Source: a virus. Taken from it: a stretch of 34,722 nt of DNA. Position numbers and translations under genes: made by a program. Positions within the stretch are counted from its first letter, which is position 1; the number at the start of each line of letters is the position of its first letter. Shown piece after piece: positions 7,836 to 32,448 of this stretch. Under the pieces are notes generated by a model. The model was not told the origin of the DNA. It searched no databases and saw only the letters and a list, made by a program, of their open reading frames with translations. The stretch lies in the IMG/VR virus record IMGVR_UViG_3300034168_000303, positions 1 through 34,722 of that record; one strand, 5' to 3'.

Positions 7836-10800
7836 TTAAGATTTAGATTCTAAGGTTTTGATGCGTTCCAGCAAGTTTTTATTCATCGCATTGAGTTCTT
7901 TGACGGCATTAACCAATGCGGCGATGATTGGACGTTCTTCAAGAGAATAACGATCATCCTTTTGGTCGTAATGAACGGCTTCGGGAATTACGGTTTCAAC
8001 TTCTTGAGCAATGAAGCCCGTGTAGGCAATATCACGCCGCAGCGTCGATTTTTCGTTCCAATGGAAACGCACGGGACGAAGACCGAGAATAGCGTCAAGA
8101 CCGCGCTCAAATTCATTGATAACGTCCTTGTAACGACCATCAGAGGTTTGAACAAGGGAAACGCACGTTACGGTGCCGTATTCGTTAGCTCTGAAAATGG
8201 TGCCGCCACCGCTATTGTTAGCGTCAATCGGAGAATAGCTACTGCCAGTAAGGAGCGTGATGTTAAGGCCAACATAGCCACTGGCTACACCAAGACCCCA
8301 ATGGGTATTGCCGTATCCATTGTATCCCGTGCTGCGAATGGCATCAGCTCGGCTACCACCAAGGGTAACGCGCCCCATGTTGGATTCGTTTTGCGGGTCG
8401 CAATAATATCCATAGTCAATGTTATCGTAAAGCAAAGCAGCATATACCGCATTGTTACAGTAGATGTAATTGTTTGCCTGAATCAGGCTAAACTGCGATG
8501 TCCCATTGGGATTCATGTAGTATCCCGTATCATTGCTATCGTAATAAATTGGAGCGCGAAAATCTTGTTCAGCAATTCCAATGTATTTGATTCTTACATG
8601 ATTATCGCCCTCGCCAATTGTCATTGCTAACGTGCTGTTATATCCGTTTACATAAAAATTGTGAGCACTATATGCTTGATGCGCGTGGTATCTAATACCA
8701 GTATAAAAAGCAATATCCATTGGCTGCGGCCATGCTCCAGCTCGTTTGCCGATTAAATACTGATAATCGCTATCAGAATGCCAATTAATTATTAACCTAT
8801 CTGAAGTTGATACACCTTGATTACCAATATAAATAGCGGTTCCTGCGTCGGTAGTTAGTCTAGAAATTCTGGAATTTGAAGCGAAATCTCCATAGTATCC
8901 TGTGTTATCGCTATCGTAGAAAATTGGTGCTCTCCAAGAACCACCAGCTATTCCAGTTCCATCGCCTTGTGCAAAGGAAAATTTTGTATATGCTGTTCGA
9001 TTGCCTGAGCTTCTAGATGGAACCGTATTTGAGCCAAGGTTATTTGTTGAAGTCTCAGCGGTGATAAGAAAAGTATTAGCAGGATTATCATGCCATAAAC
9101 CCCAACCAGTATTAGGTTCAAAATCAGCGAAAATAGCGGTCCACCCCTCAGAAGTAACTTGTTGGATGGCGATTGCACCACCAGATGAGCTTGTGCCACT
9201 AGCATTTACCAATAAACCGGGTTTGTTATACGTAGCCGCATTTACTGAACCTGCGATATTTACAGACGTACCTGTGTTGTTAAAATCCGCATAATACCCC
9301 GTATTACCGCTGTCATAAAAAACTCCAGCATATAAACCGGAACCATTGCTACTATTTAATCCAAAGAGAGGAACCTCGTAAGAAGTCCCATAAGATGTTG
9401 AGTAAGTGGTTTGCGTACTTATCCACATTCTAGGGGTACTACTGCGGAAAAAATGTAAAGCAGTGCAATATGGCACATCTCCGCCTGTGTATCCGTTTAT
9501 CCACAAAGTGTCAGACCATGTAGTAGGAATACCCGTCATCGCAACCCTTGCTCCGATAGATGTTCCGAAATAATCTTGTGGATTGCCGCGAACACCGCCA
9601 TCGTATCTGGTGGGAAATCCATTAGATACGTTAATCGTTCCAGATATAGTGTTAGTTACCGTTAATCCAAGAAGATTGCTTGTGCTGGCGGGGTCCACGT
9701 AATAACCCGTATTATTACTATCATAGAAAATTGGAGCACGAACATCACCAGTAGCAGTTATTCTTGCGTTGCTACCATCAATAGCAATTGCATTGGTGCC
9801 ATTCCAAGAACCACCATAAATATAAACGCGAGAGTCTGTGGTTCCACCGTTACTTCCAGCCGCAATATAGCCAGCGGAGCCTAATCTGTTAGATGGGCCA
9901 TACCAGATACCGCTACTAAATGCAGAACTTTGGTTAATACGAAGATAACTGTCCGTAGTTTCAAAAATGGTTTTACCGTTACCAGAAAGAATGTTGATAT
10001 TGGTAGTATTCTGAAGATCGGCGTAAAAATTCGTATTATCGCTATCGTAGAAAATTGGTGCTCTTGAGGAAGTACGGCTATAAGTGTTACCTGTTTCTAC
10101 AGCAGTAAAATCCACAATTGATGTTCCGCCAAACGCCGAAGCATGGCTAAAATTCCACTCACTTTTACCGGATTCTTTTAAGGCACTGACATTAAGATTG
10201 AGATAACCTGCTCCAGCACCATTACTAGCTATAACAGTGCCGTTTGCTAAACTACCTAATTGTATTGCATTGTTAGTGGCAGTAGATGAAATGCCGCCTC
10301 CATTAAATGCATTAGTTCCAGTCCAAGTATTGTTGGTTCCTAATATCGAAGACCCCGGTGTTCCTTGTGCTCCAGTAGCACCAGTAATGCCTTGTGGGCC
10401 TGTGGGTCCAGTAGGACCCGTCAAACCCTGAATACCCTGCGCTCCAGTAGCACCCGTAAGACCCACTGGGCCTTGTACGCCTGTTGGTCCGGTTGTGCCC
10501 TGTGGACCCGTTACGCCCTGCGCTCCGGTTGGTCCTTGTACGCCTGTGCTGCCCTGTGCGCCTGTTGACCCCTGTGGGCCAGTAGCACCTGTTGTACCCT
10601 GTGGGCCAGTCGAGCCAACGGCTCCGGTAGCACCCTGTACACCAGTAACACCCGTGCTGCCTTGTGGTCCTTGCACACCAGTAGCTCCCGTGGTTCCTTG
10701 GGGACCCTGAATGCCCTGTGGTCCTGTAGCTCCGGTAACGCCCGTAGCGCCATCAATACCGGATGCCCCTTGCGGACCAGTAGCTCCGGTCAATCCTTGT

Positions 10801-12851
10801 GGACCAGTCGGTCCTTGTAAGCCCGTTGGGCCTTGGATACCTGTTGCACCCGTAATACCAATCGGGCCAGTTGGACCTTGTGGTCCGGTAGCACCGGATG
10901 GCCCAATTTGGGTGTACATCACCTGTGTAGCGGTGAGGATAACCGAAGGAGTGCGCGGATACGTAGCGTTAGCGGGAATCGTTTCCAGTGAGACGTTCGC
11001 GTTGGTTGTTTGCCAGAAAAGCTGAATGTAATCGGTAGCTGACAGCGACAGTACAAAATTGACGGTCAGGATTTGCGACGAGAAATCGCTCCCTTGCTTG
11101 TCGGGAACGTCGTAATGGGAATTCGTATCCGCGAGGATGGCTCCGTTCTTTTTAAGGAAGAATTGCGACGTACCAGATGCCGTGCTGCGGTTGGTCAGTT
11201 GAATCGAGAATGTAATGCTGTAAACGCCTTGATACTCAAAGGTTACTTGGCTGCTAGAAGCCACGGTAACACCATTATTGGCCGCATCGGAGCTATTAAG
11301 CGTAACGGCTTGCGGGGTATTGATTGCAACGGGGGTTTGATCGGTGGTATCCCAAAAAGAACCCCAATAACCAAGAGCACCACCAGCACCCTGCACACCC
11401 GTAGCTCCGGTAGCACCAGTGGCTCCAAGACCACCCGTGCGGGTAAAGTTAATGCCATCAGTACCGATAATGATGCTGCCATTGACGCCAGTACCAGTAA
11501 GGAACTGAATCATCGTAGCGCCAGCAAAGCTAGTGCCTGTTAGAACGAACGCAAAGTCGCCGTACTCAACCTGTTGAGCGATATGATTGTCAAAGTCGGT
11601 AGCGCGAGTAAAGCGATACTTGGTTGAGGGCGAACCAAGGCTAGTAACGGTGTAGATACCGTTCTCAATGGGGTTAGTCCGGTCATCAATGATCAACCGA
11701 TTGCCAACCGCAGCGGTTTGCCCATCAATTAGACCAAGAGCACCGTTAGCATCGGCCTCAATGTAAGCGCCAACGCCATAACCACCATCAGCGCCAAGAG
11801 AACCAGCGAAATAGGTGGATGCGGTTTGACCCTGTAGAACGAAATTAACGGATTGGTGGGCATTAGCCGTACCAGCAGGTCCGGTAGCTCCCGTGCCACC
11901 CTGAGGACCCGTAGGGCCTGTTGGACCGCTAGGTCCGGTTGGGCCTGTCGTACCAGTTGGCCCAGTTGTCCCTTGGGGACCCGTTGGACCCGTAGGACCA
12001 GTGGTTCCCGTAGGACCTGTAGTACCTTGCGGACCCGTAGGCCCGCTCGGCCCAACAATACCAGTAGCTCCAGTAACACCTTCGGGACCCTGAATACCAG
12101 TTGGTCCGGTTGTTCCCTGCAATCCCGTTGGTCCCGTTGTACCAGTCGGTCCAGTAGTACCTGTTGGACCCGTAGTTCCGGTGGGACCCGTAGTACCACT
12201 AGGACCTGTTGGTCCTGTGGTTCCAGAAGGACCTTGAATACCTGTAGGACCCGTCGTACCTACTGGGCCTGTCGGCCCAATAACGCCTGTAGGACCTGTA
12301 GTGCCCTGCAATCCGGTAGGACCTTGTAATCCCGTGGGGCCTGTAGTACCAATAGGGCCTGTTTCACCAATCGGGCCAGTCGGACCCGTGGTTCCTGTCG
12401 GTCCAGTCGTGCCAGAAGGACCTGTCGGTCCCGTTGGACCGGACGGACCAGTAGGCCCTGTCGGGCCAGTGGTGCCCGTAGGTCCAGTAGTTCCTTGAAT
12501 ACCGCTAGGACCAGTTGGTCCGGTAGGACCCGTTGTGCCTGATGGTCCTGTTGGCCCAGTTGGGCCAGTTGGGCCTGTTGGGCCTGTAGTGCCGCTAGGG
12601 CCAGTAGGACCAGTAGGTCCGGTGGGTCCTGTAGTTCCGGTAGGTCCGGTGGTGCCAGTGGGTCCCGTCGTGCCTGTGGGGCCTGTAGTACCCGTTGGAC
12701 CAGTGGTGCCCGTTGGGCCAGTGCTGCCTTGTGGACCCGTTGGTCCGGTTGGTCCTGTTGGACCTGACGCGCCAGTAGGTCCGATTAAATCGGGGAAAAT
12801 AACATCGAAATTAGGCGGCGTACACCAATTGGGCTGGTCACAAGACGACAT
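7836..12851 (-). CDS. Giant collagen-like tail fibre with C-terminal S74 intramolecular chaperone
   Basis: 1671 residues, the longest gene here. Residues 1-23 are a short Cys-containing anchor (C4, C10, PP). About 24-326 are roughly 100 Gly-X-Y triplets rich in GPT; about 330-475 a globular domain; 476-650 a short second GAT stretch plus a jelly-roll-like domain; 650-829 a second collagen region. About 920-1480 hold six copies of a fibre repeat of the form [16 protein letters not shown], typical of phage and cyanophage fibres. The end (about 1568-1671) is a peptidase S74 / endosialidase-type chaperone: SDGRYKD with the Ser-Lys pair, [17 protein letters not shown] and a terminal coiled coil. 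S74 domains trimerise the fibre and then cleave themselves off. Likely a host-receptor-binding fibre. Confidence 0.93.
8400..10080 (-). repeat. Six-copy fibre repeat YDSxNTGYY inside the tail fibre gene
   Basis: Six copies, at about residues 927, 1035, 1175, 1305, 1430 and 1474 of the fibre. The first five read xAP(I/V)FYDSxNTxxYxD (the third as [10 protein letters not shown]) and the last is a degenerate [11 protein letters not shown]. Spacing is uneven (about 44-140 residues), so unrelated inserted domains separate the copies. Confidence 0.8.
10355..10905 (-). repeat. Second collagen-like Gly-X-Y region of the tail fibre
   Basis: About 60 Gly-X-Y triplets, richer in Gln and Ala (GPQG, GATG, GVQG) than the first region. 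No interruption of the Gly periodicity was seen apart from its ends. Confidence 0.88.
11868..12782 (-). repeat. First collagen-like GPT-rich region of the tail fibre
   Basis: About 100 Gly-X-Y triplets, mostly GPT and GTT with some GPS, GLQ and GIQ. Identical tripeptides are written with different synonymous codons from copy to copy. Confidence 0.92.
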
Positions 12852-13429: not shown

Positions 13430-14686
13430 ATGCCTATCACTCCTACTCCTGCTTACGTCGATCTTCCGACAGCGACCCAAATCTTCGCTGCGGACCCAAC
13501 TCGCATCATCGCTCCCATTGGCGCTGCTTTGGCCGCTAATGTTCCTTACCTCTCGGTTCTTCCACAGAAGACCTTTGAGGCCCAAGTGTCCCCCATCCAC
13601 GTCAGCGTGGTTCAAGGTCGTACCGTCCCCGGTACTTCCATGACCTTCCCGACGTTTAACACGATGGGCAGTGTCACTGCTATCGGACCCAATGCTGGTA
13701 ACAGCAAGAGCGGTACGTCGAGCTATCAATACCAAGCGAAAATCTACCAAGATTTCTCGGATGTTATTGCCCTCAACGTCGCTTACAATGCGTTCAAAGA
13801 GTCCCTTACTTCGCAGCTCCAAGCTGTGCAGCAATACTCCACGGAACTCATCAATGCCGATACCCGTGCTGAAATCTTCACCCGTTCCGGTGTTAAAGCT
13901 GTTGTTCAATCGAGCGCCAGCTTCTACTCCACGATCAGCGGTGGTCAGCAACAAATCGACACCCCACTCCCGAATACCTATTCGGATACCCGTCTGAGCT
14001 TCCAGCTCCTCCATCACTACGCTCGTTACCTCACGCAAGACCTCCTTGCTTGGAAGTTTGGCGAGGGCGAAAACGCGCACGTTCGTTTCATTGGTTCCGC
14101 TGACATTCTTGAGGCCCTTCGTCAGGACCTCGGTGGTGCGGCTGGCCCCGGTGGATACGTCCAATACCCAATCGGACCTCTCGCTGCCAACAGCATTGCT
14201 GGTGACAAAGAGGCGATGAAGGGAATGACGGGCTACCTGTTCAAGCCCATGTTCCGTGGTATCGACTTCGGTGAGGACCAACGCCCCCTCCGCTACAACT
14301 GGACTGGTTCCACGTATGTTGCGGTTGAGCCATACGTCCAAGTTGCTGGCACGACTGGCAATATCGAAGTTGTTAACCCCGGCTGGCTGGTCGCTTCTCA
14401 CGAAGTCGGCTTCCTGTTTGCTCGTAACTCTTTCGAGCGTCAGGTTCCCGCTAAATGGGTTGGCGAAGGCCGTGTGAAATGGGCGCAGCAAATGTTCGGT
14501 GGAGAAGTCATCTTCGGGGCTTACCCTGACATGGTGCAAAACTTCTTCCGTAACTACGGTGTGCTCGCGTTCCAAATCGGTCGTGCTTTCCGCCCGATCT
14601 ATCCTTGGTTCGTGCTCCCCATCGTTTACAAACGGTGCAATGTTGACGATGCCCCAGCTTCTTGCTCTGGCGTCTCTGGCGTCTAA
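13430..14686 (+). CDS. Major capsid protein
   Basis: 418 residues. The sequence has the look of HK97-fold capsid proteins: an N-terminal arm, a long spine-helix-like region (SLTSQLQAVQQYSTELINADTRAEIF, about 125-150), beta-rich P-domain segments, a glycine loop (GGAAGPGGYVQYP), and a C-terminal stretch FQIGRAFRPIYPWFVLPIVYKRC. Codon use is strongly biased to C-ending optimal codons, unlike the neighbours, as expected for the most abundant protein. The gene is alone on the plus strand with its own promoter, about 145-nt leader and terminator, while all other structural genes are on the minus strand. The ATG has no Shine-Dalgarno (AGTATTATC precedes it). The 386-aa frame on the opposite strand is a shadow. 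The capsid call rests on these features, not on a search. Confidence 0.85.
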   Translation: MPITPTPAYVDLPTATQIFAADPTRIIAPIGAALAANVPYLSVLPQKTFEAQVSPIHVSVVQGRTVPGTSMTFPTFNTMGSVTAIGPNAGNSKSGTSSYQYQAKIYQDFSDVIALNVAYNAFKESLTSQLQAVQQYSTELINADTRAEIFTRSGVKAVVQSSASFYSTISGGQQQIDTPLPNTYSDTRLSFQLLHHYARYLTQDLLAWKFGEGENAHVRFIGSADILEALRQDLGGAAGPGGYVQYPIGPLAANSIAGDKEAMKGMTGYLFKPMFRGIDFGEDQRPLRYNWTGSTYVAVEPYVQVAGTTGNIEVVNPGWLVASHEVGFLFARNSFERQVPAKWVGEGRVKWAQQMFGGEVIFGAYPDMVQNFFRNYGVLAFQIGRAFRPIYPWFVLPIVYKRCNVDDAPASCSGVSGV

Positions 14687-16482: not shown

Positions 16483-16709
16483 TTGATTTTCTTACCTTCG
16501 TTAGGATAATTGGGTCGAGTAATCCCGCAGGTCAGGTTCTCGCAGCCCATGGTTTCATTGCTGTCAAAGCACTTGAATTTACCAGTGTTAAGATGGACCA
16601 AGAATATCGGATTATGGTCGATGCCGTAATCAATCATGAGAATTGCCCTTCCTTCGCCTAATGGCGTCTGAACCCATATCGGGTTTGTGAACTCATGAGT
16701 GACTGTCAT
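16452..16709 (-). CDS. Hypothetical small beta-rich phage protein
   Basis: 85 residues: PIWVQTPLGEGRAILMIDYGIDHNPIFLVHLNTGKFKCFDSNETMG. The TPLGEG...DYG...N..F.V.L..G....DSN pattern recalls small phage proteins of unknown role that I have seen in other tailed phages, probably a beta-barrel. It overlaps the start of the methyltransferase by 31 nt, long but acceptable for a coupled phage pair. A weak Shine-Dalgarno (AAGGCG) precedes the ATG. Function unknown. Confidence 0.6.
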   Translation of the reverse strand: MTVTHEFTNPIWVQTPLGEGRAILMIDYGIDHNPIFLVHLNTGKFKCFDSNETMGCENLTCGITRPNYPNEGKKIKWNPVTTKES

Positions 16710-16751
16710 TTTCGCCTTGAACCTAGAACAGAATTCGTGCTTAATACAAGC

Positions 16752-16955
16752 ATGAAAGTCAGCAGCAGCAACATTGAAGAAGTGGAATACGATGAACAGT
16801 CCGAAACAATGTCGGTTACGTTCAACAATGGCAGTACCTATGCGCTGTTTAACGTGCCCAAAGGCGTTTACGAACGCTTAATCAAAGCTGGCAGCATTGG
16901 GTCATACTACGCCAGCAACATCAAAGGTCGTTACAGCACCAGCAAGGTCAGGTAA
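16752..16955 (+). CDS. KTSC domain protein
   Basis: 67 residues, nearly all one KTSC domain (PF13619-type): MKVSSSNIEEVEYD, MSVTFNNGSTYALFNVP, GVYERLIKAGSIGSYY, NIKGRYS. The family is found alone in phages and bacteria and fused to lysyl-tRNA synthetase in some; its function is not known to me. The start at 16752 is chosen because the domain begins there; the longer frame from 16695 adds an unlike N-terminus. It is alone on the plus strand in a minus-strand region, ending one base before the stop of the next minus-strand gene. A TTGAAC box lies upstream. A related segment seems present in that neighbouring ejection protein. Confidence 0.8.
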   Translation: MKVSSSNIEEVEYDEQSETMSVTFNNGSTYALFNVPKGVYERLIKAGSIGSYYASNIKGRYSTSKVR

Positions 16956-19900
16956 TCACTTTTCCTGCCATTCGGCGCGTTCAGCCTCGGTCATCTTTGG
17001 TATCTTCTTATTGGCGGGTTTGCTGACGGTCAACCCTGTGCCAAATTTGCTTTCAATTTTATCACGGAATGAGGCCAACGAAGCCTTGGTGTTAACAATC
17101 GTGTACTGACCGTCGCCGGGAACCTTAATCGTAACCTTTGGGGCTTCATCATTAAATGATGACAGAATCCTTTCAGCGTCTTTTACCTTGTTTGTGTAAG
17201 AACGACCGCTGCCCTTGGAATAGTATTCCTTGTCCTGTAATGCGCGAGCATAGGCTTCCTTGTCTTTTGCGGTCTTAAGTTCAGGAACATCAGGAGCGGC
17301 TTTCTCCAGTTCTGTAAGATTCTGCGTAAGGTAATCCTTTTGAGCAGCCATCTGTTTCTTTGAAGCCAATTGAGACACTTCGGAATCAAGTTTCTCGCTG
17401 GGTTTCAGCGTGATTTTGTTCTTGGTCTTAGTAACCGTAACTTCGGGATTGCTGACAACTGGGATTTCGGCAGGAGCAGGAGCCGCCGCAGCACTAGGAC
17501 CAGCCGCAGGGGGTTCTGGTGGTGGCGTTACGGGAGCTGGAGCTGTAGGTGGAGCCTCTGGAGGCATTTCACCTGATTTTGGAGACTCTAGTTCTTGAAA
17601 GCTCTTGAGCGAAGCGGGTTTTGTTGGCTTATCCGGTTTGGCCACAAACAAATCAGTGACGTTTTTGAGGATAAGGTTGTATTCCCTTGGGTCTTTGGTT
17701 CCAGCAAGCACACGCGCAGCAATTTCGGTATCACTGTTAAGCGGAATGTTGCGCTCCTTAAATTCATTCAGAGCATTGACCTTACGCTTATTAAACTCTT
17801 CGGTAGTGAATGAAGGAGTGGTTTGAGACTTTGCGGCCTTTTCCTCACCAAGCATGGCTTTGCGCGTAGCTACCACATCAGCTTGTCCAAGACGCTCCGA
17901 GAGATATTGATTCCATTCTTGATCGGTTTTGTTCTTACGGAGATTAATTACATTTTGGTAATCAACGCCCTCTTTCTCCACAATCTGATCAATGATGCTT
18001 TGGTTCTGTTTCTCGATAGAACTCAGCTTTGCTTTTTCAACCGTTGCAGCAGCTTCATCAACAGCTTGTTTTTCAGCAGCCGCAGCTTGTTCTTTAGCGG
18101 CAGCAGCTTCATCGGCTTTCTGCTTTTTACCAGCAGCAATCGACTCATTCTCAATATCAATGTCACGTTGACGCTCCATGCGCTCATTCATGCCGCGCAA
18201 TTCAACCATCAAGTCTTCGCGTGTCTTAGGCAAAGATTCTTTAATCTTGGATTCAGCCTCTTTGAACATCCCGCCAATCTCTTTCTTGGTCTGACGAGCA
18301 GCAGTAGCTACCGAAGATTGAACAGACGATTCTGTAGCAGCCTTAGTTGCTGTAGCCGCCTTTGGAGTTGTTTCTGGAGCGGGAGGCATTTCCCCTGCGG
18401 GTCCTAAATTAAGTTTACCGGAACGATGTAGCTCAACCGCTTTCTGTAATTCAGCAGTGTTGTTAGCTATGCCGATAGCGCGAACACTAGGGTTGGTTTC
18501 AAGGTCGCTTTTAATGAAGGCAGCTTTGTCGGGAGCAGCTTCAAGTTTAGCCCCCATCTCTGGAGTGATTTGATCGTAAACGTAATGAGATATGCCACGG
18601 CTTGAGCCAATGTTATCGTAAACCGTTGGAACAAATTCAGCGTAAATCATCCCGTGTTCAGGATGGTAAGAGTAACTGAGAACCCTATCGGTTGGCGAAC
18701 GCTCAACATTTTGCTGACGCGCAGCAAATGCCTCAAGCGGACGAGCACCACGGGCTTCCCTAGGGATTTCACCCATCACGCGACCTGACGCCGCCGTTAA
18801 GCTAACATAGCGCGGGTCAAAACGATTCAATTTGGGGTCAATAACAGCACTTGTGCTACCAATCCGTTTGGCGTCAGCAACCAGATCGGTCACTTGGTCC
18901 ATGGTTGGAGCCTTACTCATGATGTTCTTGCCGGAATCGGCAACAAAAGAAACTTCACCCGGTTTGATTTCAGGCACGGGTGCTTGTTTTTTACCCGCAA
19001 TTATGTCAGCAGCATCGGTATAAAGACTAGATACGTTAATGCTTTCTCCGGGCTGAAATAAACGTGTGGATACAGCACCTCTAAGTTTTTGGCCAAGCGA
19101 ATTTAGTGCTTCGGCTCCACCCTTGGCCGCGCTTAAAACCTCTGGAAGTCCTTTGGCTACGCCACCAGTAGCAGCACCAACACCAAAACCAGCCAAAGCA
19201 GCTTCTTTATCGCCGGGTTTATCGCTAGTTGCCGCTGCAAGGCTACCACCAAGCGCCCCGCCTAAACCAGCAGCCGTAAGGGTTGAGGTGATTCCTTTGA
19301 TTGCATCAGCAGATGCGTTTTTAGTAAAATTACTGAGCGAAATGTAGTTCTGTAACCAATTTTGTGATGTGGCAATTTTGTCCGTAAGGGCATTAACACG
19401 GTCCAAGCCTTGCTCTTCGGTTAACCTAAGGGCAGGAATATCCTCAATATCTTTAGCGAGCTGACTTTGCAGTTTAAGAATTCGCTTTTCCAGCAATGGT
19501 TGAGCACCCTCTTGAATAAAATCATTGATTGCAGACACGAACTTTGTTTCAACGGCTTTAGGAATAAAAGATTCGCCAAGTTTAGAAGCAAATTGAAGTC
19601 CTTTCTTGGCTACGGTTGTTCCAGCTTTAGCGGTTGCAAGCGCAGCCTTGCCGCCCATCTCTGATGCCGTTTCTAGGGCTTTTACGGCCTTTCCGCCGCC
19701 ACCAAGGGGCAACATAACCCCTCCGACGAATTCGCCTATTTTTGCAGCGGATGGCTTTTCTGCACCATAAGTCTTTTCCGTGTACTTTTGGGCTACATCC
19801 TGAAATTTCTTGTTAAGCTCAAGACGGTCCAATGCTTCTTCTGCCGAATTACGCAGCAATGCGTCATCCCCAGTAGCTTTGGCAATGCCGGAAACGGCTT

Positions 19901-20390
19901 CTTCGCCAATGTTGGCACCAAGATTAAGGGCAGCACGACCAGTCTCAGCTAGAACGCGAGGTACTTGAGCCATGCCAGCAATAGCTGCTTTAACAGGGTT
20001 TTCCATGTACTCAGGAAGTGCTTTTTCAACCACTTGTTGAGCACCGGACAAAGCCTTACCTGTTCCCTTAACCATTTCACCAACGGATGGAACGTACTGA
20101 CCAGCCCGCTCAATTGGGCTATATTTCTTCATGCGCTGAACGTAGGTGTCAGTCCATTCCTTGCGCGCCAATTCCTTGTCGGCGTCGGGAGTATCAGCAG
20201 AAAACAACTTGGCTTCCGATTGCCGTAGTTTGGAATCAAGAATATCTAATGCAGATGATGGCTTATCTACGTTACTAGCGTTAGATAAAGAAAATTTGGC
20301 ACCAGTTTGTGCAGGAAGCGGAGTTTGATTATTCGGAGCAGGAACCGAAGAATCAACATTAGCCGCATTGATTAGACTAAATGTAGCCAT
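16956..20390 (-). CDS. Large internal virion/ejection protein (T7 gp16-position)
   Basis: 1144 residues, in the place and size range of T7 gp16 (1318 aa). The N-terminus holds two copies of FSLxNAxNVD (4-13 and 33-42). Residues about 95-290 are amphipathic helices; about 367-417 a Gly/Ala hydrophobic region that could enter a membrane; about 470-640 a globular part with a KTSC-like segment (about 560-635); about 700-793 an Ala/Glu/Lys coiled coil; about 937-978 Pro/Ala-rich; and a Lys-rich C-terminus. No SLT muramidase motif is seen, unlike T7 gp16, so that activity may come from the 2572-3006 protein. It would be ejected through the envelope at infection. It is followed by two further ejection-like genes in T7 order. 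Confidence 0.72.
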   Translation of the reverse strand: MATFSLINAANVDSSVPAPNNQTPLPAQTGAKFSLSNASNVDKPSSALDILDSKLRQSEAKLFSADTPDADKELARKEWTDTYVQRMKKYSPIERAGQYVPSVGEMVKGTGKALSGAQQVVEKALPEYMENPVKAAIAGMAQVPRVLAETGRAALNLGANIGEEAVSGIAKATGDDALLRNSAEEALDRLELNKKFQDVAQKYTEKTYGAEKPSAAKIGEFVGGVMLPLGGGGKAVKALETASEMGGKAALATAKAGTTVAKKGLQFASKLGESFIPKAVETKFVSAINDFIQEGAQPLLEKRILKLQSQLAKDIEDIPALRLTEEQGLDRVNALTDKIATSQNWLQNYISLSNFTKNASADAIKGITSTLTAAGLGGALGGSLAAATSDKPGDKEAALAGFGVGAATGGVAKGLPEVLSAAKGGAEALNSLGQKLRGAVSTRLFQPGESINVSSLYTDAADIIAGKKQAPVPEIKPGEVSFVADSGKNIMSKAPTMDQVTDLVADAKRIGSTSAVIDPKLNRFDPRYVSLTAASGRVMGEIPREARGARPLEAFAARQQNVERSPTDRVLSYSYHPEHGMIYAEFVPTVYDNIGSSRGISHYVYDQITPEMGAKLEAAPDKAAFIKSDLETNPSVRAIGIANNTAELQKAVELHRSGKLNLGPAGEMPPAPETTPKAATATKAATESSVQSSVATAARQTKKEIGGMFKEAESKIKESLPKTREDLMVELRGMNERMERQRDIDIENESIAAGKKQKADEAAAAKEQAAAAEKQAVDEAAATVEKAKLSSIEKQNQSIIDQIVEKEGVDYQNVINLRKNKTDQEWNQYLSERLGQADVVATRKAMLGEEKAAKSQTTPSFTTEEFNKRKVNALNEFKERNIPLNSDTEIAARVLAGTKDPREYNLILKNVTDLFVAKPDKPTKPASLKSFQELESPKSGEMPPEAPPTAPAPVTPPPEPPAAGPSAAAAPAPAEIPVVSNPEVTVTKTKNKITLKPSEKLDSEVSQLASKKQMAAQKDYLTQNLTELEKAAPDVPELKTAKDKEAYARALQDKEYYSKGSGRSYTNKVKDAERILSSFNDEAPKVTIKVPGDGQYTIVNTKASLASFRDKIESKFGTGLTVSKPANKKIPKMTEAERAEWQEK

Positions 20391-20398
20391 TTTCGGTA

Positions 20399-22330
20399 TT
20401 ATTTTTTGCGTTTGACCGTTGATTGATTTCCGTCCTCATCAATAATTACTGTGCCATCTGGTAATGCGTCAACTTCGGCTTGAGATTTAACCAAAATTGG
20501 GCCTACAGGTTTTTGAGCAGCAGGAACTGCACTAGGATTAGAAATGGGATTAGCGGGATTAACAATTGCAGCTTTTTTTGATGGACCAGCAGAAGTCCAA
20601 GGAGCATTACCTGTGTTATCTAATTTATCGTAATCAAAATCTCCTGTTTTTTTATCAAGAAGATCAATGTTATCAATAACGGTTTTATTTGGATTAACAT
20701 ATCCCTTATTTTTCAAAGTGTTGTACAAATCCCAAGGAATACGGTTTTCATTAACAGAATAATCAACTCCGGGCGTGCCTTTACCAATTGGATTGTCATT
20801 GGTGTAATCATCCCATTTTGCATCAAATCCGTCTGTTATTTTGTAAACTTTGTAATAATTTGATTTAGCCCTCAGATAATCTTGTTGGTTCTGATTGCCG
20901 ATAAGATACCCCATGGCCAGCTCTTTACGAACTGGTGCGGGAGTATTTGCATCGCCAAGGGCCCCAATGATGCTTTGCATTTCTTGAACAGCGACTCGAC
21001 TTCCGACAAGGCCCTTAGCTTGTCCAAGACCAGCTTGAGTAGCAAGTTTATCAAGAGCAATTAAGTCTGGTTGAAATAATTTGCGAACATCGTTAACAAT
21101 TCCACCAATAAGAGGGATTTTAGAAAATGTTGTTACTTTTTCACCAATGTTTAATTCTCGGCCAATAATATCGCGGCTGCGTTGAAGATCAGAAATAAGT
21201 GCTGCATTTCCGTCCATTTCTTTTCGCGCAGCAGCACGCATTGCAAGGTTGTTTGACACCGTTTCACTGGATGTCATGTTAACATTAGGATTACCTGTAA
21301 CCGCAGGAACTCCTTCCCGAATAGCGTTTTTAATGGAATCGTTAGCATCTTTGCCGGGTGCCCAAACAAACTGGTTGTTTTTATTTTGATAACCAAATCC
21401 ACCAGTTGTAAACGGAATTTCTTCAATTGGTTTGACCAAAGGTTCAATTGCAGGGCCAGCAGGAATAGATGCAGCAGCTACGGGAGTTGCTGGAATTTGC
21501 GGAGTAGGAGCAGTAGCGGCTAACGGTAAACCAGTTTCGGTTTTAACTTGATTAAGAAGACCGCCTTGAGGAATTGTTTCAATTACAGGAGCTTTAAAGC
21601 TACCCAATGCTTGCGGCAAACTTGGTGCAGCAACAGATTGTGGCGTAGGAGCAGGTACAGAAACCGCAGTTTGGGCGGGAGTCGTGGAATATGGAACACT
21701 ACCAGCAATAACATCCGTTACCGTACCAAATATTTTTTGTCCCGCCGCATTTAGCGTATATGGACGAATTCTATGCCGTGGTTGACCAGTTACTGGGTCA
21801 TCCGTGATTGCTCCAATAAACTCAAATTCAGTATTGCCTGAACCACGATTAAGCGCACTAGAAGGAAGGGCGGTTAATCCACCAGCGGTTCTGATGTAAT
21901 TAATGCCTCCAACATTAATAACATCATATCCTTCTTTGGAAATAGCTTTGGCAACAGCTCCTTGACCCGCAGCTTGATTAATAGCAATCTGTTCAGGACT
22001 GCCGACAGCACTGGGTGCTAATGCGGTCAAAGCAGACGTTCCACGGGCTTTTAATGCCGCTTCCGCTCGTTTGTTACGCAATTCTTGCACTGCTGCTTGT
22101 TCTTCGGGGTCAAGCAAACGACTTTGCTGTTCAGCCAATCCCTTTTGATAACCAGCTTGAGCAATGGCAGCTTGAGTCTGTGGCGCAAGCAAAGCTGTCT
22201 GTTGCGCGTTCTTGAGCGCATTAGAGTAAGCCTGTTGGGTTTCGCCAACGTCAAATTTGCCGAGGTTGCTCGGCATACTCAAGGGCTGCGGCAGTGCGCT
22301 AAGTTGAAAGCCTGATGTAGGATTAGCCAT
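20399..22330 (-). CDS. Internal virion/ejection protein (T7 gp15-position)
   Basis: 643 residues, near T7 gp15 (747 aa) in size and place. The N-terminal third is Gln/Ala-rich helical (QQAYSNALKNAQQTALLAPQTQAAIAQAGYQ), the middle (about 220-300) is Pro/Ala-rich and likely flexible, the second half is folded and helical (MRAAARKEMDGNAALISDLQRSRDIIGREL, SRVAVQEMQSIIGALGD). I recognise no domain. It lies 8 nt from the gp16-like gene and 11 nt from the gp14-like gene. Its start has TTAATAATAATCGTC upstream and no Shine-Dalgarno. The ejection role follows from position and composition only. Confidence 0.6.
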   Translation of the reverse strand: MANPTSGFQLSALPQPLSMPSNLGKFDVGETQQAYSNALKNAQQTALLAPQTQAAIAQAGYQKGLAEQQSRLLDPEEQAAVQELRNKRAEAALKARGTSALTALAPSAVGSPEQIAINQAAGQGAVAKAISKEGYDVINVGGINYIRTAGGLTALPSSALNRGSGNTEFEFIGAITDDPVTGQPRHRIRPYTLNAAGQKIFGTVTDVIAGSVPYSTTPAQTAVSVPAPTPQSVAAPSLPQALGSFKAPVIETIPQGGLLNQVKTETGLPLAATAPTPQIPATPVAAASIPAGPAIEPLVKPIEEIPFTTGGFGYQNKNNQFVWAPGKDANDSIKNAIREGVPAVTGNPNVNMTSSETVSNNLAMRAAARKEMDGNAALISDLQRSRDIIGRELNIGEKVTTFSKIPLIGGIVNDVRKLFQPDLIALDKLATQAGLGQAKGLVGSRVAVQEMQSIIGALGDANTPAPVRKELAMGYLIGNQNQQDYLRAKSNYYKVYKITDGFDAKWDDYTNDNPIGKGTPGVDYSVNENRIPWDLYNTLKNKGYVNPNKTVIDNIDLLDKKTGDFDYDKLDNTGNAPWTSAGPSKKAAIVNPANPISNPSAVPAAQKPVGPILVKSQAEVDALPDGTVIIDEDGNQSTVKRKK

Positions 22331-24324: not shown

Positions 24325-26361
24325 TTAGCTAGGATAAGTAGGGGTGTAACCCGTTTCAATGTAATTACTCGAAATCGGGGAAAGTGCTTCTGCCGAGCTG
24401 CGCTCAACAAAGGAGTAGTTTTGCGAGCCGTTAGGCACGTATTCAGGGCAACTGGCCTCAGGGAGGATGTGTTGACCAGTCTCAGGGTCAAGAACCTCGC
24501 CTTCCGTGTTATCGGGGTTGTAATCGACGGTTAAACGATAAGCCTTGAGCGCACCGACACCCGTGAAATAGAGCAAAAGGCTGAAAGCGCGATCAATGTC
24601 ATCCTGATCTTTGTCTTCTACGTTGGCAGAAGTGCAGGTTTCCTGTGCGCGATTGTCCTTAGCGCGAATATCACGGGTTTGCTTGGCAAAACTTTCGTGA
24701 TTCGTGGCATTCACAATTGGCGTGTAGTCAGGGTTGTCCAAAAGAACTGAACCCGGAGTTGCCATGACGGAAGTATCAAGCAATTGATGGTATTTGCCGC
24801 GCAATCCCTTCCAGAAGCCTTCGATGGTAACGCCACCGTAGATTTGAGTCATCAATAAGCGGAAGGTGCGGAATATGGCTTTGGAGAATGGACCGTCCGT
24901 AACGGAATGGGATTTGGTTTCAATGGTCCACGACACGGGTTCATTGTTGTCCGCACGATTGCCATTAAACGCCTTCCAGACGCGAATAACGCCATCGTAG
25001 TCAACTGACATGCAGTACACCTTCTTTTGCCCGTTAATGACCGCTGTAGCCCATTCTACGGGCCTTAGACCCGTCCATACGCCTTGCCATGCGCTGCTAC
25101 TAAAGGAACTGCCAGCAGACACGTTAAATCCTACGGGCATCACGATGCGGTCAAGAACCTGCGTATGACCATTGTAGATGCGTCCACGGTAGGTAGCCTT
25201 ATACTCAGGATTAGAAGGCTTAATAGCCACAGGAACTGACCACCAGACGTAAGAATCAAAGCTACCAGCGCAAATAGCAGAGCGATTCCCGCTCATTTGC
25301 TGTTTGGAGTAGGCCATTTCGCTGTCAATGGGAGGCAGGGCTTGGGTTGAAACAACCGTTCCGAAGCTGTCAAAGGCAACGATACCGTTGTCCGAGTACC
25401 AATGCAGCAAGCCCATGTGGTTAATCATGGACTTATGGCTAACGCATCCTACGCCAGCGAACACTTTACGTTGGAAATCGGCTACAGTAATCCATTCGCT
25501 GCGTTGCTGGATGCCTGATTGGATGGTAAATATGCCCGTATCGGTTCCAACAAACAGCATGTTTTGTTGAACACCTGATGCTCCACGGTCAATAAGGCCA
25601 GTAACCGTAGTTGGGAAGTTAAACGACGGGATGTTAATCAAGACCGTCTCATCGGTAAAGGTTAGCGGGTCGCCAAGGTCAGAAGCGAATACTTGAGTGC
25701 CGTTGGCCACCCAAAGGCGATTGCCGCTCCAAGCCATCCACAGGCCCAAACGGGTCTGATTGTAGCCATCCACGTAGATTGTGTTACCTTGGTCATCCGT
25801 CTTCCATTTCTTGACCGGATTGAGGCTACCAGCAGCTACGCCATCCCAGTAACAAGCACGGCTAACACCGTCCTGCATGATCAAGATGTTCTGTGGAGCT
25901 GTAACCCACACTCGACCATTCTGTAGGGTAGAGGTGCGAACCGTGTTAACCGCGCAAATTTGATCTGCTTGGCGGCTAAATTGGATTTGAGTGATCAAAA
26001 CTGGGTTATTAACCGTGCCGTCAGGATTGATATTGCAGTAAAAAACGGCTCCAGACACGCCAAACAGCAATTGAGGATTGCCGTTGGTAGGCTGAAAGAA
26101 CGTAAAGAACTGCGGGTAAACGTCAGGTGTACCATTATTGAACCACCAGTTGTAGAAATCGCCGCTAGACGAATTGTACATCAAGGATAGCACGCTATCA
26201 AACCCCGGACGGGTCTGCCAAATGCCACCCTTGTTGACCGAATTTTCAGCCCAGCGCACTTGAGTATCGCCCACAAACTGAGGGTCAACGTAGCTATTCA
26301 CCCCATCGGTGAAGCCAATGACATCCTTGTAGGTTCTAGTTTGTGGAACTGTATGCGCCAT
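24325..26361 (-). CDS. Tail nozzle protein (T7 gp12-like position)
   Basis: 678 residues, close to T7 gp12 (794). It begins MAHTVPQTRTYKDVIGFTDGVNSYVDPQFVGDTQVRWAENSVNKGG, with the GxNxYxxP...AxNxxV pattern of the nozzle N-terminus. The body has many short beta strands with repeating Trp/Tyr blades, in keeping with the beta-propeller-rich nozzle (LWVANGTQVFASDLGDPLTF, MLFVGTDTGIFTIQSG). No catalytic motif is seen. It is preceded by the adaptor-like gene, as in T7 gp11-gp12. The call rests on order, size and fold impression. Confidence 0.75.
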   Translation of the reverse strand: MAHTVPQTRTYKDVIGFTDGVNSYVDPQFVGDTQVRWAENSVNKGGIWQTRPGFDSVLSLMYNSSSGDFYNWWFNNGTPDVYPQFFTFFQPTNGNPQLLFGVSGAVFYCNINPDGTVNNPVLITQIQFSRQADQICAVNTVRTSTLQNGRVWVTAPQNILIMQDGVSRACYWDGVAAGSLNPVKKWKTDDQGNTIYVDGYNQTRLGLWMAWSGNRLWVANGTQVFASDLGDPLTFTDETVLINIPSFNFPTTVTGLIDRGASGVQQNMLFVGTDTGIFTIQSGIQQRSEWITVADFQRKVFAGVGCVSHKSMINHMGLLHWYSDNGIVAFDSFGTVVSTQALPPIDSEMAYSKQQMSGNRSAICAGSFDSYVWWSVPVAIKPSNPEYKATYRGRIYNGHTQVLDRIVMPVGFNVSAGSSFSSSAWQGVWTGLRPVEWATAVINGQKKVYCMSVDYDGVIRVWKAFNGNRADNNEPVSWTIETKSHSVTDGPFSKAIFRTFRLLMTQIYGGVTIEGFWKGLRGKYHQLLDTSVMATPGSVLLDNPDYTPIVNATNHESFAKQTRDIRAKDNRAQETCTSANVEDKDQDDIDRAFSLLLYFTGVGALKAYRLTVDYNPDNTEGEVLDPETGQHILPEASCPEYVPNGSQNYSFVERSSAEALSPISSNYIETGYTPTYPS

Positions 26362-28537: not shown

Positions 28538-31087
28538 TCAGGTGTAATTGTTGAATACTTGATTTCCGCTTCCTTGATCGTAAACGACTGTGCCACCCGG
28601 AGAAGACGGATAACCGTTAGGGCCTGTGTTATCGGTCGCAAATGTTTTGTTTCCAGACGCTATGGATTGAGCCGTATGATCTTGCAACCAAATTCCTGTA
28701 ACGCAACCAACAAAGGTATTATTTGTCACAAGGTGTCCTGCCGTATCTTGAAGAACAACACCATTGCCATTATTTGTGCGTAACCAATTATTGTGAATAA
28801 AACTAAAATGACTATCATCACTAATATCAATTCCTACAAATGACGAGGTACCAGCATCACCAAAGAACAAACAATCGTGAATGTAAACACGTTTTATTTT
28901 TCTAATGTAAATTGATCTTTGGCTATTAGCACCATGGGTGTTAGAAATACAAATATGTTCTTGGGTACTGCTTGGAGATGCGTACAAACCGTATTGACCA
29001 AGTAATGTGCAATCATCAATAATTGTACCTTCCAAATTGCCAGATATGTATATGCATTTATCGAAATTGTAAAAATCACATGCTATAAATCTGGTAGGAT
29101 TGGATTCAGCGGTATAACACGGAGCACCACCGTTTCCTGAGGTGGCTAATTGAACACCGTTTGCTCCTGTAGTATCATCATTTTTACCACGAAAAGTACA
29201 ATTAATAAGTTTGGCATTCCAAGCATTAGTTATTCTAACTTGATAAGCGTAATAACCACTTCCATAATATGCGCTTTGTGGATTAATTGTTATTCCCCTC
29301 ATTTCCAAAGATTGAAAAGTGTTAGAACACGCTGCTCCCCAACTTAAATCTATTCCAATTGCTGCAACAGCTCCAGTTGTTTCAACAGCAACACTAAAAT
29401 CAGCTAGTAATAAACTGCACTGACTTCCTTCCGTTTTATTGAATCCAAGTCTTAAAAGTCCAGAATTGCTATATCCTGAAAGAACGGAGACGCCTTGCCC
29501 GTCTCCCATAATTGTAAGACTCTTTGGAAGCGCAATTGAATCGTTGTAAACCAGACTATTTAATCGGTATCGGCCAGCAGGGAAATAAACGCATCCTCCC
29601 GTAAAAAGAGAAATAGCGGCATCCATGGCTTTTTGAAATGCCGCTGAATCATCGTTTGTTCCATCACCTCTAGCTCCAAAATCCCTGACATTTAATTTTG
29701 GGAAAGAGCTTCCGGTTATGTATTGAACAGAAATATCAGATTCATTTGCACCCCATGACTGAAACAAAAATTGCATAGTTTGCGCTGGTCCAATAACTGT
29801 CGGCAAACTGCCATTTGTTTTCCAAGTTCCAAGTTGTGACCAAGTAATAGTTAAATTCCCGCCCGTGCTGTTGTACAATTCAAGCACAGAAAAAGCTGTA
29901 CTAGCCCTATTAGATGTTGCTACTATTACAGCATTAATTGTCAGGGGTATGCGTGCTCTAGCTACGGAAACATCGACGGTTATGTTTCCTCCAGATGGAT
30001 AATTAAGTTCAGGAACAAGTTTTAACTGAGTGGCTTCAACAATCGACAATCCCGCATTGCCGCCTTGGACAACAACGTCACTTGCTAAAATCCCGCTATC
30101 TTTGACCGTTGAGGAATTAACAAACGAAACTAAGTGATCAGCGGTAACTGCTGTGCTGACGGTGAATCCGGGACCTGTGGGGCCAGTTTGTCCAATCGGA
30201 CCTTGCAAACCTGTAGAACCAGTAACGCCTTGCGGGCCTTGTACGCCAGTTTGGCCCACCGGACCAGTTTGACCTACTGGACCTGTTTGACCCACGTTGC
30301 CTTGTAGGCCAGTAGCACCTTGAATGCCTTGAACTCCTGTTTGACCAGTCAATCCTTGCAGTCCGGTAGCTCCGGTAATGCCTTGATTTCCCTGTATGCC
30401 TGTAGCGCCTTGTATGCCTTGAGTGCCAGTAGGTCCCTGAATGCCTTGAAGTCCAGTTGGACCTGTGGTTCCTTGTATCCCCTGAATGCCCGTTGCTCCA
30501 GTGGGACCTGATATTCCCACTCCGGTAGCGCCAGTTGACCCTGTTGTTCCAGTTGCGCCAGTTGAACCAACCGTTCCCGTTGGGCCTTGGATACCTGTAG
30601 GACCAGTAGTTCCTTGAAGTCCTGTTGAGCCTTGTGAGCCTGTTGGTCCAGTTACTCCGGTTGGTCCAGTAATGCCTTGAAAACCTTGTGCTCCGGTAGC
30701 TCCTGTAGCGCCGGGAACAGTGCTTGCAGCGCCAGTAGGCCCAGCGGGACCAGTAGAACCAACATCGCCCTTAAGGCCAGATGCCCCTGTAGGTCCAGTA
30801 GAACCTTCGGGTCCGGTAGGTCCTTGCGGTCCAGTAGCGCCAATTGTAGCCGCAGGGCCGGGAGGTCCTTCTGCACCTGTTGCTCCAACAGGACCAGTAG
30901 CCCCCAAATTTCCTTGTGGTCCAGTAGCACCTGTGGGGCCAGCAGGTCCACCAGCAGGGCCGGGGTCGCCAGCTCGTCCAGACGCACCAGTAGCTCCTAC
31001 TGGCCCAGTCGCTCCCGTTGCTCCCAGTGTGCTTTCTGGAGTTTGAGTGATTGGTTGCTGAACAAAATTGAAGGTGTCGTTAGCCAC
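28538..31087 (-). CDS. Collagen-like tailspike with pectate lyase-like beta-helix
   Basis: 849 residues from a GTG start. About 22-307 are Gly-X-Y triplets ([15 protein letters not shown]), about 310-460 a beta-sandwich-like linker, and about 462-849 a right-handed beta-helix with the pectate-lyase-3 opening [25 protein letters not shown] followed by [13 protein letters not shown]. This family includes tailspikes that cut host polysaccharides; here no catalytic residues can be pointed out with certainty. The long rungs ([46 protein letters not shown]) show the solenoid. The probable role is host-capsule recognition or degradation, on a trimeric collagen stalk. No Shine-Dalgarno precedes the GTG (TTAATCCCTAATTTAACCT). 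Confidence 0.85.
30167..31024 (-). repeat. Collagen-like Gly-X-Y region of the tailspike
   Basis: About 95 triplets with short breaks ([22 protein letters not shown]). The central part is GIQ/GLQ/GTT-rich, and one segment repeats [12 protein letters not shown]. Confidence 0.88.
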
Positions 31088-31452: not shown

Positions 31453-32448
31453 TTAGGAGGTCCATGCAGCTACGATACCGTTGTCAAAGTTGTTCCAAGC
31501 AAAGAGGGCGAGTAAGCCCGTGGAATTTGCCGCTAGGGTAGTAGGCACTGTTCCATTTGGAAACCACTTCCAGTCAATGGGGAACGTAAGGTTGCGCTCA
31601 GTTCCATCTGAATCAATGCGGATAAGGAGCGATTGACCTTCGGTAATTCCCGTAAGCTGAATGTCAACGTCTCCTAAAATATTGAGATATTGATTATCAC
31701 CATCAGCCATATCAATCACTGTTGTTGCTCCGTAAGTAACTGTATGGATTCGGCTTATGTACCGATCTGCCGTAACTTTTTCTGGAGCTTGCAAATTTGT
31801 CGGAAGGCCAAGGGTGTAAGTAGCGCCAGTTGGAACAGCAGTAATTTGATTCGCAGTTCCGTTAATCACTGGTGTTGCTCCAGTAGCGCCGATTGCACCC
31901 GTTGCGCCCGTAGGACCAGTTGGCCCATTAGCAGGACCCGTAGGTCCCATCGGTCCCGTAGAACCGCTTGGTCCGGTAGCTCCACTTGGACCGGACGCAC
32001 CTGTTGGACCAGCAACACCACTGGCACCGCTAGGCCCAGTAGGCCCTGTAGGGCCGTTTGCTGGCCCTGTGGGGCCTTGTGGACCCGTAGCGCCAGTTAC
32101 ACCCGTTTCGCCAATTAAACCCTGTAAACCCAAAGGCCCGGTAGCTCCTTGCGGTCCGGTAGGACCACTTGGTCCTGCGGCTCCAGTTGCACCAGACTGA
32201 CCAGCGGGACCCGTAGCGCCTTGAATTCCTTCGGGGCCTTGTGCTCCGATAGTGCCTTGCGGTCCTGTTGGGCCTTGTAAACCACTAGGACCTGTTGGGC
32301 CTACAGCTCCAGTTGATCCAGATGGACCCGTTGGTCCACCAGCAGGTCCCGCAGGTCCTTGTGGGCCAGATGCACCAGTAGGCCCTACAACCCCTTTAAA
32401 AAGGTAGGCTACTGTCGGGGGAATCATGCAACTGTAATTGTCTGCCAT
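31453..32448 (-). CDS. Collagen-like virion protein
   Basis: 331 residues. A short anchor (1-21, with C7 and PP at 10-11) is followed by about 22-194 Gly-X-Y triplets with several GGPTG and NGPTG breaks, and a beta-rich C-terminal head (about 200-331: [34 protein letters not shown]...[13 protein letters not shown]...[10 protein letters not shown]) that looks like the small trimeric head of phage fibres. Likely a trimeric spike or head fibre. It is the first of four structural genes in a row and lies at the end of the divergent space with the 32519 gene. Confidence 0.8.
31867..32385 (-). repeat. Collagen-like Gly-X-Y region
   Basis: About 57 triplets, mostly GPT, GPS, GAT and GAS, broken at GGPTG and NGPTG. 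Confidence 0.88.

Follow-up and report, generated by a model that had tools for sequence, protein, structure and literature searches.

The viral DNA stretch analysed here (34,722 nt, positions 1 to 34,722 of IMG/VR record IMGVR_UViG_3300034168_000303; referred to as the window) contains a 67-aa KTSC gene and, abutting it on the opposite strand, an ORF of 1144 aa. This arrangement raises the question whether the large protein itself includes a KTSC fold and what the two neighbours might do. KTSC is a family without established function; it has been guessed to be RNA-binding (PMC8541194, PMC7824862) or stated to be DNA-binding (PMC9503650).

The stand-alone gene (16752..16955, plus strand) encodes a canonical KTSC domain, as a first-pass annotation had said with the right boundaries. 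The protein matched PF13619 with 75.6 bits (E = 2.5e-21), exceeding the gathering cut-off of 25 bits. Its ORF is readable from position 16695, and conservation in all relatives begins at MKVSSSN. Between the window and its relative L002 (IMGVR_3300043436_001617), 14 codons of this gene changed synonymously and 2 non-synonymously (dN 0.013, dS 0.46); between the relatives L018 and L019 the corresponding numbers were 5 and 2. The stand-alone gene is under purifying selection. At the position of the central YxY motif, which we take to be a mark of the KTSC family, the stand-alone copies read YAL in the window and L002 and YxY in L017-L019. Alignment of five upstream regions identified an element (16717..16751, plus strand; TTG, approximately 18 nt, a TGCYTAAT-like sequence and CAAGC before the ATG) that is kept in four lineages and may constitute a promoter or start signal. 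Promoter scans at this element gave no strict sigma-70 match, and its recurrence elsewhere in the window was not beyond chance.

The 1144-aa ORF (16956..20390, minus strand) stops at the base directly after the 67-aa gene, so that both are convergent. A 643-aa protein (20399..22330, minus strand) is encoded upstream of it, followed by a 678-aa virion-type protein (24325..26361, minus strand; weak phrog_511 match, E = 0.002) that served as marker of the phage group, with orthologues of 99, 70, 60 and 60% identity in contigs G002-G005. A near-twin contig, IMGVR_3300042297_000348, shares 99.9% DNA identity with the window across 18 kb. L002 matches the flanks at 91-95% DNA identity, whereas blastn found nothing in it corresponding to window positions 17565-22133, a segment that takes in the greater part of the 643-aa and 1144-aa proteins. 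At the protein level, the first 662 residues of the large protein are about 29% identical to those in L002, while the last 200 are nearly identical. Accordingly, the N-terminal 940 residues and the greater part of the 643-aa protein have been swapped, or have diversified, as one unit.

Large proteins of the group comprise 950-1190 aa and show 17-41% identity to the window's 1144-aa protein. Linked sequence matches (L017-L018, E = 4e-17; L002-L017, E = 4e-7 over the region discussed below; window-L017, E = 1.8e-4) identify them as one diverged family, and with the 678-aa neighbour retaining 60-99% identity among group members, the rate of evolution is far higher in the large protein. When the full 1144-aa protein and its candidate KTSC segment were compared to GenBank phages by tblastn, no match was obtained. 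The corresponding L002 segment hit two places only, both under tRNA-Lys genes at E = 7, which we took as chance. Viral scans with three queries (P0002, A2 and A3) returned the near-twin and L002 only.

Two further features of the window were recorded. A 418-aa plus-strand ORF without Pfam match (13430-14686) lies opposite a 386-aa minus-strand ORF; it has counterparts of 418 aa in L002 and L017 and of 417 aa in L018/L019, and these matching lengths suggest that it is probably a real gene. Moreover, several collagen-like (Gly-X-Y) tail-fibre-type genes are situated at 7836-12851, 28538-31087 and 31453-32448, including one ORF of 1671 aa, and blastn detected many cross-matches among these stretches.

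The first-pass annotation had placed a KTSC fold at residues about 560-635 of the 1144-aa protein. Pfam did not report a KTSC match up to E = 10 in this protein, neither at full length nor in slices of 262 and 94 aa. A 71-aa slice scored 13.0 bits against PF13619 (E = 0.085) and the DNA-level comparison 11.1 bits (E = 0.0125), both below the cut-off. Judged by its own sequence, the window module is thus marginal and the weakest of the set. The homologues were more informative: the full-length 1190-aa protein of L002 matched KTSC with 25.3 bits (E = 1.3e-5, residues 541-601), the full-length proteins of L018 and L019 also exceeded the cut-off, and that of L017 stayed below it with 20.2 bits. 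At the DNA level, two KTSC matches above the cut-off were detected in each of G002, G003, G004 and G005. Furthermore, hhalign aligned the two embedded segments of the window and L002 to 16 KTSC domains with a score of 34.9 (E = 2.5e-6, probability 88.8%), and with 35.7 when the window's own stand-alone copy was left out. This score surpassed all 200 column shuffles (maximum 17.3). Among 61 windows along the alignment, the best five (27.7-35.1) overlapped the module, and the best distant one reached 11.1. Searches of PDB sequences with the segment by phmmer and profile yielded nothing significant (best KTSC row 4rgi, E = 0.69), and PHROGs returned phrog_34451 only (E = 0.27).

Structure prediction pointed to the same region. 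An AlphaFold model of residues 545-660 (pLDDT 71.7) displayed the order strand-strand-strand-helix-helix-strand-helix. Ranks 1-10 of the Foldseek search in the PDB, with modest E-values of 0.013 to 0.54, were taken exclusively by KTSC proteins and SIR2/HerA chains, the latter having a C-terminal KTSC domain. VIA superposed the model on 4rgi with Z 8.2 (1.6 A over 62 residues) and on 7x8c with Z 8.1, a Z under 8 being a possible sign of a common arrangement; the best unrelated row had Z 4.8. The full-length model (pLDDT 41.8) was too poor for a structure search; the module is its best-predicted stretch, with block means up to 78 versus the mean of 41.8. As the methods agree, we conclude from profile comparison and predicted fold that residues 569-640 (18471..18686, minus strand) are a KTSC-fold module. 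This bears out the proposed embedded fold, in that the aligned segments of the window and L002 matched the KTSC profile significantly and the model of the window segment fitted solved KTSC chains. The module is present in both versions of the diverged cassette with 35% identity, whereas stretches of 60 residues average 26.5%; ranking 20th among 603 such stretches, it is conserved only slightly better than the mean.

The conservation of the pair was addressed by an IMG/VR scan with the stand-alone protein, which retrieved five contigs including the window's twin. In every one of them a convergent large ORF adjoins the KTSC gene (1144 aa in the twin, and 1190, 1124, 950 and 960 aa), with stops that abut, lie 2 bases apart or overlap by 9 bases. 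With the KTSC HMM, four of these contigs showed the embedded module, whereas that of the twin stayed below threshold. The group's sixth contig, L189, stops short of the pair. As a control set, at least 120 viral loci with KTSC were collected by sequence pattern and 50 of these were searched as whole records. A second KTSC domain anywhere in the record was present in 2 of the 50, and two KTSC domains within the fetched locus occurred once among the 120 KTSC-bearing loci listed. Since the five contigs form one lineage, their uniform arrangement counts as one or a few events and not as five independent ones, and the order may have been inherited from their common ancestor instead of reflecting a functional link. 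Genes for a glycosyltransferase and a methyltransferase-like protein adjoin the pair in the window and L018. The suggested side-by-side placement of stand-alone and embedded KTSC is a conserved arrangement, and its occurrence in several divergent phages is new here.

The two kinds of copies differ in their polar residues. S5, S6, S48 and G50 are kept in all five stand-alone copies, whereas none of the five embedded copies has S5, S6 or G50 and a single one has S48. Across a further 112 KTSC domains from phages and viruses, S5 occurred in 95%, S6 in 76%, S48 in 98% and G50 in 100%. The G50 value is biased by the search pattern with which most of these domains were retrieved; S5, S6 and S48 are free of this bias. 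As the pattern fixes KTSC residues, columns 30, 32, 35, 36, 49, 50, 52 and 53 are biased at the pattern-fetched loci. The Y-x-Y core is present in all embedded copies (5/5), and strands 2 and 3 are joined in them by a longer loop, with PTVYD in the window and L002, PTVY in L018 and L019, and neither in L017. Embedded copies have thus retained the KTSC core and lost the polar S-S / S-x-G signature.

In a tree of 70 KTSC domains, which was built from few columns, with bootstrap values that had not settled and very long branches for the embedded copies, the five stand-alone copies formed their own clade (81/77) and the embedded copies were placed on long branches away from their own partners. This separation makes recent copying within the phage unlikely, so that the duplication suggested earlier did not find support as a recent event; a duplication in the distant past may nevertheless have occurred.

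Naming the 1144-aa ORF an ejection protein is based on its position, size and divergence, and the designation is accordingly used here in the sense of ejection-protein-like. Pfam and PHROG searches of this protein gave no match to any named ejection family, and without a name from the family libraries its identity as ejection protein stays an inference. The large protein resembles gp16 in size, place among virion-type genes and rapid divergence. It is predicted to be mostly helical; hydropathy of the large proteins, calculated with a view to membrane-spanning elements, showed modest peaks, with best 19-residue means of 1.0-1.4, and the near-twin contig encodes a terminase upstream. A multidomain polyvalent protein in the sense of Iyer 2017, combining several enzymatic domains in one polypeptide, was ruled out as no enzymatic domain was present; the KTSC module was the only part of the five large proteins that reached a family cut-off. 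The term KTSC is absent from the text of the polyvalent-protein paper PMC5512222.

KTSC domains are joined to other proteins elsewhere. The portal protein of Halorubrum virus BJ1 (L028:836-2791; PF04860, 71.3 bits) has a KTSC domain at its C-terminus (44.9 bits), and the same region is present at 71% identity in a protein of Halorubrum virus CGphi46 annotated as portal protein. Within jumbo phage vB_PcaM_CBB, the KTSC protein CBB_320 was identified in virions by mass spectrometry with 4 peptides and 37.2% coverage (PMC5259590). Since these halovirus portals and CBB virions also contain KTSC, the view that the window provides the first link of this family to DNA delivery was overstated. L055:6742-10071, a viral ORF with a length of 1110 aa or more, has a strong KTSC domain at residues 292-353 (66.6 bits) and an HExxH motif (HESVH) further on, and is possibly another injected multidomain protein. 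The S-S / S-x-G signature is intact in the L055 protein and in the BJ1 portal tail. A 616-aa protein of Belliella kenyensis (L047:5961-7811) combines SLFN_AlbA_2 and HATPase_c_4 with a C-terminal KTSC domain (80.8 bits), another case of KTSC fused to what is probably a nucleic-acid-handling protein. The passages on KTSC examined in PMC8541194, PMC7824862 and PMC9503650 describe neither a KTSC-fold module within an ejection protein nor a pair of KTSC copies.

The fold, as predicted, and the conserved adjacency of the pair are the firm part of our interpretation. Beyond these, we favour, with confidence about evenly balanced, that the KTSC-fold module resides in a fast-evolving gp16-like ejection protein facing a canonical KTSC gene and acts as docking element of the delivery machine. 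The 1144-aa protein would be packaged as an internal virion protein and then injected, and docking would be the most likely role of its module. Loss of the polar signature suggests that the module probably no longer acts as a canonical lone KTSC domain; it might work either through non-specific contact with DNA or as a partner of the intact stand-alone protein, which would be expressed separately in the infected cell. A partner expressed on its own would fit the position next door, the coding on the facing strand and the conserved element upstream, but inheritance of the gene order accounts for these features nearly as well. Against the favoured view stand the missing match to an ejection family, the modest hydropathy peaks, the poor full-length model, the shared ancestry of the five contigs and the weakness of the window's own module; moreover, DNA contact by KTSC is a statement of one paper, while others name RNA. 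The more specific version, a two-part device in which stripped and intact KTSC recognise each other and the stand-alone protein is a putative chaperone, brake or superinfection-immunity factor, appears rather unlikely to us.

The closest competitor, to which we attach a probability somewhat short of even, is a coincidence of inheritance, in which an ancestral KTSC gene beside a KTSC-fold protein was kept by gene order without joint function. This agrees with the shared neighbouring genes in the window and L018 and with the failure of the partners to join in the tree; yet the module persists in each lineage despite strong divergence of the large gene and exchange or diversification of the cassette between near-identical phages, and second KTSC domains are rare in other records (2/50). 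A little less probable still is that the two domains bind nucleic acid independently of each other, the embedded copy clamping incoming DNA as thought for T7 gp16-C and the stand-alone one binding host or phage nucleic acid. KTSC fusions to the portal, the SLFN_AlbA_2 protein and HerA, the DNA-binding designation by one group (PMC9503650) and DNA binding by gp16-C (PMC8954989) argue for it, whereas the conserved polar residues are lost in the embedded copies and a solved KTSC complex with nucleic acid was not seen.

Improbable in our estimate is an immunity or timing factor, that is, a stand-alone KTSC protein putatively made in the infected cell that blocks an incoming module or holds new ejection protein inactive until packaging. 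Its coding strand opposite to the virion genes, the conserved upstream element and purifying selection would suit this role, but the element does not strictly match a promoter. Chance resemblance through a generic strand-strand-strand-helix-helix motif would be consistent with the sub-threshold Pfam score of the window sequence; considering the four homologues above the cut-off on DNA and the hhalign, Foldseek and VIA results, we regard it as very improbable. Retention of the pair in several divergent phages makes the role of KTSC testable, and an intact and a stripped copy, the latter in a probably injected protein, offer a concrete experiment on KTSC recognition. Additionally, the module provides a landmark for fast-evolving ejection-like proteins that are missed by family libraries.

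Among known systems, the podovirus ejection proteins T7 gp16 and P22 gp16 share size, rapid divergence, domain swapping and place among virion-type genes with the large protein; gp16 homologues are reported to span 609-1337 aa at about 20% identity with swapping of domains (PMC8954989). Unlike these, the large protein lacks a sequence match to a named family, and KTSC does not appear in the passages of PMC8954989 on gp16 that were examined. CBB_320 is likewise a KTSC protein and is present in virions (PMC5259590), but it is a 177-aa protein of a myovirus. Similarly, the BJ1 and CGphi46 portals join KTSC to a virion protein surrounding DNA; they differ in being portals and not ejection-like, and the KTSC domain of BJ1, around which 5.2 kb were examined, retains the signature. 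Compared to the PF13619 family (4rgi, 7x8c and the HerA C-terminus in SIR2/HerA), the embedded module has the same fold with an enlarged beta2-beta3 loop and without the S-S and S-x-G signature, whereas the stand-alone gene matches the family fully.
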